64,000 nucleotides of DNA from Actinomycetota bacterium (GTDB lineage Bacteria; Actinomycetota; Actinomycetes; Nanopelagicales; Nanopelagicaceae), in contig WLOP01000001.1 in assembly GCA_009699205.1 (NCBI GenBank), positions 62,001 through 126,000 on the forward strand. The letters run 5' to 3'. Below the pieces are notes generated by a model that searched no databases, had not been told where the DNA came from, and was given only the letters and a program-made list of their open reading frames with translations. Positions 3,769 to 44,551 of the stretch are shown piece after piece. Numbering within the stretch: position 1 is the stretch's first letter; each line of letters begins with the position of its first letter. The position numbers were made by a program, and so were the translations under genes.

Positions 3769-6700
3769 TTAACGCAACCATTCTTGCAATGGTTTAACTG
3801 TGAGTTCCCCTTGTTGTAGGGCGCGAATACCCGCAACAGCGGCGTTAAACCCAGCTGTTGTTGTAATACACGGAACAGATTTCTGGACCGCTGCTGTTCG
3901 TATCAGCCATCCATCTTGTCTAGTACCACGACCCACAGGAGTGTTAATCACGAGGTCAATACTTCCAGAATTAATGAAATCAACGATGGTTTTTTCACCG
4001 AAAGGACCCACCCCTTCGGAGTTCTTGCGTACTAAAGAGCACGGAACATCGTGTTCTTGCAGAAATTTCGCCGTACCAACAGTGGCTACAAGTGCAAAGC
4101 CCAATTCGATCAGCGCACGAGCCCCAGCCACACCATTCTCTTTATCTTTATCCGCAAGTGAAATAAAGGTGCGACCAGCCGCAGGTAGTGGGCCAAAAGC
4201 ACTGATTTGACTCTTTGCATAACTTTCACCGAAGGTGTCAGCTATCCCCATCACTTCACCAGTAGAACGCATTTCCGGCCCCAACACTGCATCTACACCA
4301 CGCCCATCACTTCTGCGGAAACGATTCCAGGGCAGGACCGCTTCCTTCACGGAAACACCACGCGCGACCCCGTCACCGGAAGCTGGCAGCGTTGCATCCA
4401 CACGAAGCTCTGCGATAGATACCCCCAGTGAAATTCGAGCTGCTGCTTTGGCAAGTGAGACGCCGGTAGCTTTACTCACAAATGGAACCGTTCGTGAAGC
4501 ACGTGGATTAGCTTCTAAGACATAAAGAATTTGCTCCGCCATGGCAAATTGAATATTAATCAATCCCCTTACGCCAACACTTTGAGCGATCTTATGAGTC
4601 GCTTTCCGAATCTCTGATAACTGAACGGTCGATAAAGTCATCGAAGGCAGAACGCATGCACTATCGCCGGAATGAATTCCTGCCTCTTCAATATGCTCCA
4701 TAACTCCACCCATGTAGAGCTCGTGCCCGTCATAGAGCGCATCAACATCTATTTCGATCGCCGAATCTAAGAAGCGGTCTACAAGAACTGGATGATCGGG
4801 AGTGATATCGGTAGCACGACTAATGAATCCACCTAATGAAGCATCATCGTAAACAATCTCCATGCCACGTCCACCAAGAACAAAGGATGGACGAACGAGG
4901 ACCGGATAACCAATTCTTTGTGCAATCAAAAGAGCCTCTTGCTGAGAAGAAGCCATACCAAATTCGGGTGCAGTTAAACCTTGTTCCAACAAAATGTTAC
5001 CGAATGCTCCACGTTCTTCAGCAAGATTTATCGCTTCAGGGCTTGTTCCTAGAATCGTTACTCCTGCTTCTTTGAGCGCCGCCGCCAAACCTAACGGTGT
5101 TTGTCCGCCCAGTTGAGTGATTACTCCTAATACAGGACCAGCCAAGGTTTCAGCATGTATCACTTCTAGAACATCTTCCAACGACAGCGGTTCAAAATAT
5201 AAACGATCGCTAGTGTCGTAATCTGTCGACACTGTCTCGGGATTGCAATTGATCATTACCGTTTCAAAACCATGTTTGCGCAGTTCGAAAGAGGCATGAA
5301 CGCACGAATAATCAAATTCTATTCCTTGACCAATTCTGTTCGGCCCACTACCAAGGATGATCACGGCTGGTTTTGTCCGTGCAACTACTTCGGTCTCATC
5401 CTCATAACTCGAGTAGTAATAAGGTGTAAAAGCCGCAAATTCCGCTGCACATGTATCTACTGTTTTGAATACAGGTCGAATATCTGCAAGATGTCGTTGT
5501 TTGCGGATTTCAACTTCAGAGCTTCCCCGTAAAGAGGCGATTTGTGCGTCCGAGAAACCATGAGTCTTGGCCTTGCGAAGAACTAGATCGGTAACTTCAC
5601 CACAGTTAGAAAGTTCACGTGCATAATCATTGATACTTTCGATCTGCTCAAGGAACCATCTATCAATCTTTGTTGCTTCATACACCTCTTCAATTGATGC
5701 GCCCAACCAAAGGGCTTGTTGCACCTCCTTCAGTCGATACTCTGTAGGAATTTGCATTGAAGATAGAAGCGCCATTTTGATTGATTCGGAACGCTCCTGA
5801 GGGAATGCGAAGGGAGCATTAGCTCTTTCTAATGAACGTAAAGCTTTCTGCAACGCCTCAGGGAACGAACGGCCGATAGCCATGGCCTCTCCGACACTCT
5901 TCATCGTCGTCGTTAACCTAGGATCAGCGTCTGGAAATTTCTCAAAAGCGAAACGTGGAACCTTGACAACAACATAATCCAATGTAGGTTCGAAAGAAGC
6001 TGGCGTGAGTTTAGTAATATCGTTCTGAATTTCATCTAGCGTATAGCCAATTGCCAATTTGGTTGCAATTTTCGCGATTGGAAAACCTGTCGCTTTTGAA
6101 GCCAAGGCACTTGAGCGCGACACTCTAGGATTCATTTCAATGACAATAATTCGCCCGTTGAGTGGATTTATTGCAAATTGAATATTGCACCCGCCGGTAT
6201 CAACACCCACTTCTCGAATGATATCCAAAGAAAGATTGCGCAGCTTCTGAAATTCAACATCAGTCAAAGTCATCGCAGGTGCAACAGTGATGGAATCGCC
6301 CGTATGCACGCCCATTGGATCGATGTTTTCGATACTACAAACTATTACCACGTTATCTTTGTGGTCTCGCATTACTTCGAGTTCAAATTCCTTCCAACCA
6401 ATAATTGATTCTTCGAGCAAAATTTCAGAAGTAGGGCTGTAACTCAATCCAGCGCCAGCAATCTGGCGAAGTTCGGATTCGTTGTAAGCAATCCCGGAAC
6501 CAAGGCCTCCCATCGTGAAGGAGGGTCGAACCACGACGGGATATTGGAGAGATTGTGCACCAGTGACGCACTCTTCCAGAGTATGACAAATAATAGATTG
6601 CGCGGACTCACCGCCAACTTTTGCAACGATTGCACGGAAGAGTTCGCGGTTTTCGCCACGTTTGATAGCTTCAACATCGGCACCGATAAGACGTACGTTA

Positions 6701-42817: not shown

Positions 42818-43411
42818 TTAAAGCGCCCGCTTAACAATAAATATTCTCTGCAGAACAGTGATTACGCCTAATACAAGAAGTACCCACATACATATAGCTA
42901 AAGCGAAATTGACACCCAAACCCTCGAGCCCAATACCTAATAAGGCGATCATCAAACGTTCGGTCCGTTCTGCAATGCCACCTGTGCACTGAATATCCAT
43001 CGATTCAGCTTTTGCACGGATATACGGAATCAACGACCCGGTGGCCAGCGCAATGACGACCACTGGCACCAATGGATCTGCGCTTCTGTTGAGAGCGATG
43101 ATTACTCCGATGAATATGGATGCATCGGCAATTCGATCGATGGTTGAATCCAAGAATCCGCCCCAAGGGCTTGCACCCTTCTGTGAAATTCTTGCCATCG
43201 TCCCGTCAAAAAGGTCACTTAATGAAAATAGACAGATCAGAACAGTGCCTAAGAAAAATTCCGAGCGAGGATAGAAATAGGAGGCAGTGAGCACAACCGC
43301 GGTGGCACCAAAAAATGTGACAGTATTTGGCGTAAGCCCCAATTTGAGCGCGCCCTTAGCCGCAGGCGTAATGGCTCGCGTCACCGCCGGCTTGAATATT
43401 GAACTAATCAT
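42818..43411 (-). CDS. pgsA: Phosphatidylinositol phosphate synthase (CDP-alcohol phosphatidyltransferase)
   Basis: 197 residues from the ATG at 43411, preceded by GGGAGGCG; in-frame sequence further upstream would run into the divergent gene. The CDP-OH-P motif D-x-x-D-G-x-x-A-R-x8-G-x3-D-x3-D is complete: DLFDGTMARISQKG then GGFLDSTIDRIAD. Five to six membrane helices. Context with patA and pimA indicates transfer to inositol 1-phosphate (PIP synthase), as in mycobacterial PgsA1, rather than glycerol phosphate. Confidence 0.92.
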   Translation of the reverse strand: MISSIFKPAVTRAITPAAKGALKLGLTPNTVTFFGATAVVLTASYFYPRSEFFLGTVLICLFSLSDLFDGTMARISQKGASPWGGFLDSTIDRIADASIFIGVIIALNRSADPLVPVVVIALATGSLIPYIRAKAESMDIQCTGGIAERTERLMIALLGIGLEGLGVNFALAICMWVLLVLGVITVLQRIFIVKRAL

Positions 43412-43423
43412 CGCCTCCCATCG

Positions 43424-43429
43424 TAGGCT
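43424..43429 (+). promoter_or_regulatory. -10 element for leaderless EF-G-like gene
   Basis: TAGGCT, six bases, then the GTG start at 43436. A TTGAAC lies at 43399-43404, 19 bases upstream, as a possible -35. No ribosome binding site is present on this strand. Confidence 0.45.
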
Positions 43430-43435
43430 GAGCAC

Positions 43436-44023
43436 GTGCCCACGCCAATTCTTTCCGAAGTTAAAATCGCGGTTTTCGGCCACTCAAGCGCGAATCCCGC
43501 AGGCATTGCCCATCTATTTGGCGCGTTAGTTGTCTCGTCAACCGAAACTGAATGTGACCTTGCAATATTCACTGTCAATCCTGCTGATGGAATCGATCAA
43601 AAAACCATCGATGATTGGGAAGCGCTCAACGATCGATTGGTTCCGCGGCTTGTTCTTGTTACTGAACTGGATGAGAGCGAAAGCGATTTTGATGACGCTG
43701 TCATGCTGGCTAATAGAGTTTTTGACAAAACCGTTACTCCTTTTCTGGTTTTGCACAATAACGATGGGACCGCTTGCGCGTTAATTTCAATGCAAGATCT
43801 TTCGATCATTGATTACTCTGTTACGCCGCCTCAGGTTATTGAAAGCGACCCTGATCATAAGATTTTGGTTTCCGAATTTCAGAAAGAATATCTCGAAGAA
43901 ATTGAGATGATGGGCGAGAACGCATTTGAAGCTGGGTTACTCTTTCCCGCTATTCCTATTTGGCCTGACCGCGAAATCGGTGTGGATATAGTTCGAAAAT
44001 ATATTTCGCGTTTAGCGCACTAA
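43436..44023 (+). CDS. Degenerate EF-G domain I protein (predicted pseudo-GTPase)
   Basis: 195 residues with a GTG start. The layout follows EF-G domain I: a P-loop position FGHSSANPAG (about 14-23), DLAIFTVNPADGIDQKT (41-57), PRLVLVTELDESESDFDD (70-87) where EF-G has the NKMD element, and the EF-G insert region EFQKEYLEEIEMMGENAFEA (147-166), ending IGVDIVRKYISRL like the end of domain I. The P-loop Gly-Lys-Thr, the switch II DxPG and the Asn-Lys of NKxD are all gone, and domains II-V are absent. It is therefore unlikely to hydrolyse GTP. Lies alone between divergent pgsA and convergent HIT phosphorylase genes. Function unknown; resemblance judged by eye. Confidence 0.6.
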   Translation: MPTPILSEVKIAVFGHSSANPAGIAHLFGALVVSSTETECDLAIFTVNPADGIDQKTIDDWEALNDRLVPRLVLVTELDESESDFDDAVMLANRVFDKTVTPFLVLHNNDGTACALISMQDLSIIDYSVTPPQVIESDPDHKILVSEFQKEYLEEIEMMGENAFEAGLLFPAIPIWPDREIGVDIVRKYISRLAH

Positions 44024-44551
44024 TTACCAAGCAGCGGCAAGATCATCTCTAGTTTGACCTAAAAGTTGAGGCAAAGTTTTTGTTTTGCCGATAATTGGCA
44101 TGAAATTGGAATCTCCCGCCCAACGCGGAACCACATGTTGATGGATATGTTCGGCAACTCCAGCTCCTGATACTGCTCCCTGGTTCATTCCTAGATTGAA
44201 TCCTTCTGGCCGAGCAACTTTACGAAGTGTTTCCATCGCATGCACGGTCATATCTGACATCTCGATACGCTCTGACGGAGTTAAATCGGTTATATCTGCC
44301 ACATGTCTAAATGCGCACACAAGTAAATGCCCGACGTTATATGGATACAAATTCATCACCACGAACATTTCTTTTCCGCGTGCGACAATAAGTCCTTCCT
44401 CATCGCCCATCGTTGGAATTCTGCAGAACGGGCAAGCGCTCTCGTTACCTGGTAGTGGGCGATTTTCGCCTTTGAGATAGTCCATGCGGTGTGGAGTCCA
44501 TAAGCGCTCCCATGAATCTGGCATTCCTGCCCCGCCGGTAATTTCGGTCAT
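44024..44551 (-). CDS. HIT-family Ap4A phosphorylase-like protein
   Basis: 175 residues. Histidine triad AEHIHQHVVPRW, with a zinc-type CPFC motif near residue 40, and GHLLVCAFRHVADITDL. Matches the mycobacterial Rv2613c type, an Ap4A phosphorylase, in motif and place: thrS-HIT-pgsA order is conserved. Follows thrS by 2 bases. Synthetases such as ThrRS can make Ap4A as a by-product, so the pairing may be functional (inference). Confidence 0.88.
   Translation of the reverse strand: MTEITGGAGMPDSWERLWTPHRMDYLKGENRPLPGNESACPFCRIPTMGDEEGLIVARGKEMFVVMNLYPYNVGHLLVCAFRHVADITDLTPSERIEMSDMTVHAMETLRKVARPEGFNLGMNQGAVSGAGVAEHIHQHVVPRWAGDSNFMPIIGKTKTLPQLLGQTRDDLAAAW

Follow-up and report, generated by a model that had tools for sequence, protein, structure and literature searches.

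A stand-alone pseudo-GTPase derived from domain I of EF-G2 in Candidatus Nanopelagicaceae

Pseudo-GTPases are known from eukaryotic examples, in which the G-domain fold serves as a binding scaffold after GTP binding has been lost. Among translation factors, the G' subdomain of EF-G touches the C-terminal domain of L12 (PMC7395135), whose patch for binding translational GTPases is basic and formed by helices 4 and 5 (PMC6753160); in EF-G1 of Mycobacterium tuberculosis (Mtb), the bL12-contact residues are E221, E225 and E228 (PMC8446442). Actinobacteria have a further relative, EF-G2 (FusA2; EFG II subfamily; NCBIfam NF009377; PDB entry 9k0z). Because EF-G2 of M. smegmatis binds guanine nucleotides without ribosome-dependent GTPase activity, the function of actinobacterial EF-G2 has been described as ambiguous (PMC3150367, PMC9067457). 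Pseudo-GTPases and EF-G2 are already known, and a stand-alone EF-G domain I is new to the literature that we searched, in which we found no description of such a protein or of an elongation-factor pseudo-GTPase.

The gene described here belongs to Candidatus Nanopelagicaceae, the acI lineage, which is very abundant in freshwater and includes Candidatus Planktophila. It lies between two neighbours in the window, by which we mean the whole stretch of 64,000 nucleotides that was analysed:

43436..44023, plus strand: gene for the putative stand-alone EF-G2 domain I pseudo-GTPase, 195 aa, with GTG start and TAA stop (44021-44023)
42818..43411, minus strand: gene for a pgsA-like CDP-alcohol phosphatidyltransferase, the divergent neighbour, which adjoins full-length EF-G2 elsewhere too
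44024..44551, minus strand: HIT-family gene, the convergent neighbour, followed by thrS; it also adjoins full-length EF-G2 elsewhere

The open reading frame at 43436-44023 is real, and its 3' end directly abuts the HIT gene, which is encoded on the other strand. An initial annotation of this DNA had called the frame intact and the protein acidic, and both descriptions hold: the frame is unbroken and the net charge is -22 (mean -21.8, n = 51 sequences). The pgsA reading frame as listed spans 42818-43483; the ATG at 43411 is more likely to be its start than the listed GTG at 43483, which is internal to the neighbouring gene.

The best curated match of the 195-aa protein is NF009377, the model for the EF-G-like protein EF-G2 (E 7e-15, residues 40-157), at 54.5 bits and thus under the curated cut-off of 890 bits; the five-domain architecture of EF-G2 is absent. 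The best sequence match in the PDB is 9k0z, the EF-G2 bound 70S ribosome of M. smegmatis (E 5e-8). The Pfam GTP_EFTU match (E 6e-4) falls below the Pfam cut-off, and no dedicated NCBIfam or Pfam model for the short form was matched. Given an alignment of 51 sequences from its own clade (the window and 50 relatives), AlphaFold2 returned a model with a mean pLDDT of 89.0 and a pTM of 0.86. VIA-align superposed 192 residues of this model on residues 5-281 of S. aureus EF-G (Z 20.8, 2.6 A), all 50 of the 50 among the matches listed were EF-G family proteins, and Foldseek matched the model to EF-G and RF3 structures. Since the superposition takes in 192 residues, the entire protein is, as modelled, domain I with its G' insert, about 85 residues shorter. 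The domain I order proposed in the initial annotation agrees with the predicted structure, which did not turn out to have a different fold. The proposed EF-G parentage has to be amended: the origin from domain I stands, but with EF-G2 (FusA2) as the parent in place of the translocase EF-G.

Motifs were compared by aligning the short form with 15 full-length EF-G2 proteins; residue counts out of 25 refer to the clade of short forms. The elements concerned are the following:

43478..43498, plus strand: relic of the P-loop (G1), residues 15-21, GHSSANP, placed by alignment to EF-G2 and EF-G, with Lys and Thr lost
43661..43672, plus strand: relic of G4, residues 76-79, TELD, where full-length EF-G2 has TKLD, so that the lysine is lost
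43943..43969, plus strand: replacement of G5, residues 170-178, FPAIPIWPD, with P174 fixed in the short clade
43685..43915, plus strand: helix after G4 and G' insert, residues 84-160, consisting of helix DFDDAVMLANRVF, a sheet with the strands TPFLVLHNNDG and ALISMQDLSIIDY, and helix A_G'
43850..43918, plus strand: helix A_G' and its end, residues 139-161, modelled as helix at 139-159, with an acidic face at 140, 147, 151, 154 and 161

The P-loop GHSGAGKT of full-length EF-G2 has become GHSSANP in the window, the stretch that holds switch I and switch II is deleted, and the G4 region reads VTELD in the window and VTGLE in most relatives. Domains II-V are missing from the reading frame; a split gene that encodes them elsewhere was rejected, as no such separate reading frame is among the matches listed. 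The losses of the P-loop lysine, switch II, the NKxD residues and domains II-V that had been claimed from the sequence are all seen in the alignment, which adds switch I to the list. As to the helical insert, which was thought to be preserved, the G' sheet and its first helix, A_G', are indeed retained and, together with the helix that follows G4, count among the most conserved portions of the family; what is missing are the later G' helices. The protein therefore has none of the hallmarks of a translational GTPase (G1 lysine, switch I, switch II, N/TKxD in G4). It shows three marks of a pseudo-GTPase, namely a G-domain fold in the predicted model, the loss of the nucleotide-binding motifs and a gene under selection, and the stand-alone pseudo-GTPase from EF-G domain I that had been proposed is supported by the predicted fold and the lost motifs. 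It shares with domain I of canonical EF-G the fold and the acidic G' helix, which contacts bL12 in EF-G, and differs from EF-G in lacking the nucleotide site, the switches and the domains for translocation or recycling. From pseudo-GTPases in general it differs in stemming from a translation factor, through reduction in place of a bacterial gene.

According to tblastn searches with the neighbouring genes, the order around the slot is pgsA (divergent), EF-G2, then HIT and thrS (convergent). In other families of the class, full-length EF-G2 occupies the slot between pgsA and HIT in the same orientation (G037, G044, G046, G048, G049), and in G057, again from another family, the contig ends inside EF-G2 at the same slot; outside Ca. 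Nanopelagicaceae, families have mostly retained the full-length protein. Within Ca. Nanopelagicaceae, to which all 296 genomes searched from its taxonomic order belong, three states exist. Full-length EF-G2 is found in one genome of the 296, the deep-branching G033, in the same slot; an intermediate of about 325 aa occurs in one genus and fills the slot in G024; and the short form is present in 15 of 17 genera and in the slot of the remaining family genomes examined. In a tree of domain I, the short forms make up one clade (support 100/99), the intermediates adjoin it (94/82) and G033 stands separate. In a second tree, built from thrS, HIT and two transferases of the flanks, G033 and G024 lie outside a 100/100 clade of short-form genomes. 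A single basal reduction, together with survival of the intermediate in one genus, accounts for the contents of the slot and for both trees. The match to NF009377, the shared slot and the tree indicate common descent with EF-G2, of which the short form is the orthologue by position, tree and G' sequence, with the same domain I fold. At 195 aa versus about 720 aa, it has lost domains II-V, switches I and II, the P-loop lysine and the later G' helices. We regard it as almost certain that the gene is an actinobacterial EF-G2 that was cut down where it stood, at the base of Ca. Nanopelagicaceae, and now encodes a pseudo-GTPase.

Two genomes deserve separate mention. In G040 (family f5, genome of 1.4 Mb), canonical EF-G was found and no form of EF-G2, perhaps an independent loss. 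In G000, the 96%-complete assembly that contains the window, a clear match to EF-Tu or canonical EF-G was not found, which probably reflects an assembly gap at the str operon.

The intermediate form of about 325 aa was found in G024 and G088-G090, all of genus g5, at these loci:

L072 (G024), 5366-6430: intermediate-form locus
L131, L132, L135 and L142: further intermediate-form loci of the same genus

Like the short form, the intermediate has a degenerate domain I, with P-loop lysine and switches already lost, and sits in the same slot; unlike the short form, it keeps the later G' helices and carries a tail of about 100 aa. This tail resembles EF-G domain V by eye, not by statistical test. 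Alignment of the intermediate tails with hhalign gave no match to domain V, and the four tails came only 18th, 55th, 159th and 218th among 3,472 sequences, nearly all of them shuffled tails, when scored with a profile of EF-G2 domain V, so that we do not claim a domain V remnant.

The locus is present in 265 of the 296 family genomes and in all 17 genera. A search for orthologues between pgsA and HIT finds that the short forms fill one family, with the locus in 105 of 108 good-quality genomes. In 13 genomes without the locus that were checked, the adjacent HIT gene was missing as well (13/13); this check had no positive control of its own, though many further genomes of the family did yield HIT. 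Because HIT is missing too, these absences are best read as assembly gaps; real absence of the locus was rejected for these 13 genomes, among which no clean loss was seen. Median dN/dS of the short form is 0.078 and 0.072 in two divergence bands, the lower of which contains few pairs. This is similar to pgsA (0.063 and 0.074 in the same bands); the values for HIT are 0.045 and 0.039, and those for thrS 0.032 and 0.026. The short form is a working gene under strong purifying selection.

Just upstream of the start codon lies a promoter-like element:

43424..43429, plus strand: TAGGCT, a -10-like box that ends 6 nt before the GTG and overlaps TACGAT, a -10-like box on the other strand, for pgsA

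In 71 of 80 named relatives, TAGGCT keeps the same spacing of exactly 6 nt to the start codon, and in most cases it is embedded in the conserved CATCGTAGGCT. It looks like the -10 box of a leaderless promoter that overlaps one for pgsA, and judging from this conservation the gene probably does have the promoter of its own that was postulated for it. The stretch 43409-43436, between pgsA and the pseudo-GTPase gene, with its overlapping divergent boxes (TAGGCT on the plus strand, TACGAT on the minus strand) in conserved CATCGTAGGCT, is a candidate bidirectional, leaderless promoter.

What might a domain I do that appears unable to bind GTP in the usual way? A clue comes from helix A_G'. The bL12-contact residues E221, E225 and E228 of Mtb EF-G1 align to positions 154, 158 and 161 of the window protein. 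Position 154 is E in 13/25 members of the short clade and position 161 in 17/25, as compared to 15/15 full-length EF-G2 proteins for both, which means that the old contacts have relaxed; position 158 is variable in the short clade. Positions 140, 147 and 151 are invariably or almost invariably acidic; of these, E147 and E151 have become nearly fixed on the acidic face of the helix. The acid moment of helix A_G' is 4.4 in the short clade (permutation p 0.00015) and 2.6 in full-length EF-G2 (p 0.11). An acidic G' helix facing the stalk is thus found at p 0.00015, an outcome that exposed helices favour in any case. The moment points in the direction of the bL12-contact positions of EF-G (286 degrees each), a match that is partly forced, as exposed amphipathic helices turn their acids away from the core. 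Taken together, the alignment suggests that helix A_G' has been retained with an extended acidic stripe on its stalk-facing side.

We therefore favour, with a probability of about 0.4, a model in which the short form is a nucleotide-independent module that docks on bL12 via the G' helix. It would act as a binding module at the ribosomal GTPase-associated center, where the acidic face of A_G' would attach to the basic patch on the C-terminal domain of bL12 in the manner of the G' subdomain of EF-G. Without a GTP cycle and without domains II-V, translocation and ribosome splitting would be impossible. Instead, the protein could occupy or present the stalk and so tune the access of translational GTPases, or protect idle ribosomes, and its activity would be set by the amount that is made from its own leaderless promoter. 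A ribosomal partner, as envisaged in the initial annotation, is plausible. It is a more doubtful step to suppose that what matters of EF-G2 in Nanopelagicaceae is something that domain I does at the stalk without GTP, and that only this part has been kept.

The stalk model has a main rival. The whole protein is acidic, so that charge alone does not identify the partner, and old stalk binding by itself leaves the newly fixed F148 and P174 of the short clade unexplained. A different protein partner might be bound with no part played by the stalk: canonical EF-G, some other translational GTPase, or a protein outside the ribosomal machinery. The contact could be made by surfaces that were bared when domains II-V were lost, or by the remodelled nucleotide pocket. 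We consider such a partner somewhat less likely than stalk docking, and it has points in its favor: residues are newly fixed at the old pocket (P174 in 25/25, together with A172/I173) and on helix A_G' (F148 in 25/25), H107 and Y127 hardly vary and have no obvious role in EF-G, and D41, the EF-G counterpart of which makes a salt bridge to domain II (PMC8446442), is still D in 19/25. However, several genera and the intermediates no longer have D41, so no conserved partner resembling domain II is indicated, and the inherited neighbourhood does not suggest a partner gene.

The remodelled pocket might also hold a small ligand, such as an altered guanine nucleotide, ppGpp or another compound, which would make the protein a sensor. 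The G1 relic has kept its shape (G15 in 23/25, H16 in 18/25, A19 in 17/25), and the FPAIP that stands in place of G5 is strongly conserved. But the protein has lost the lysines of the P-loop and of G4 as well as both switches, and we recognized no motif for another ligand, which makes a sensor distinctly less probable than another protein partner.

A joint function with the neighbours, in PIM and phospholipid metabolism or in Ap4A metabolism (HIT), would suit a gene that sits between pgsA and HIT and has its divergent promoter region in common with pgsA; the initial annotation had raised regulation of the PIM or Ap4A functions. As full-length EF-G2 adjoins the same two genes in other families, the position reflects ancestry and gives no hint of what the short form does; the proposed regulation is not borne out, and we rejected the link as very improbable. 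Least likely of all is a decaying EF-G2 remnant on its way out of streamlined genomes, which the reduced genomes of the family and the stepwise shrinkage of the protein might suggest, but which is rejected on the dN/dS of 0.07-0.08, the presence of the locus in 105/108 good genomes and all 17 genera, the conserved promoter-like box and an origin that occurred once, at the root of a clade with 100/100 support, in line with the earlier argument against decay.

The retention of a domain I without nucleotide motifs in practically every genome with an assembled locus implies that some useful part of EF-G2 needs neither GTP nor domains II-V. From full-length protein to intermediate to short form, the family offers a traceable series in which a translation factor becomes a small pseudo-GTPase. 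If a stalk function without GTP is indeed what was kept of EF-G2, an elongation factor would have given rise to a novel class of small regulator that binds the stalk, or of protector for idle ribosomes, and the short form would also expose what EF-G2 does elsewhere in the Actinobacteria, for example in mycobacteria. With its 195 aa, the protein makes the question of EF-G2 function directly testable.

A swap for a hibernation factor is not indicated, because most genomes of the family still have HPF; it was not detected in several others. Where HPF was found in the family genomes (G000-G036), the reading frames are all short, with 109-153 aa versus 209-346 aa in other families.
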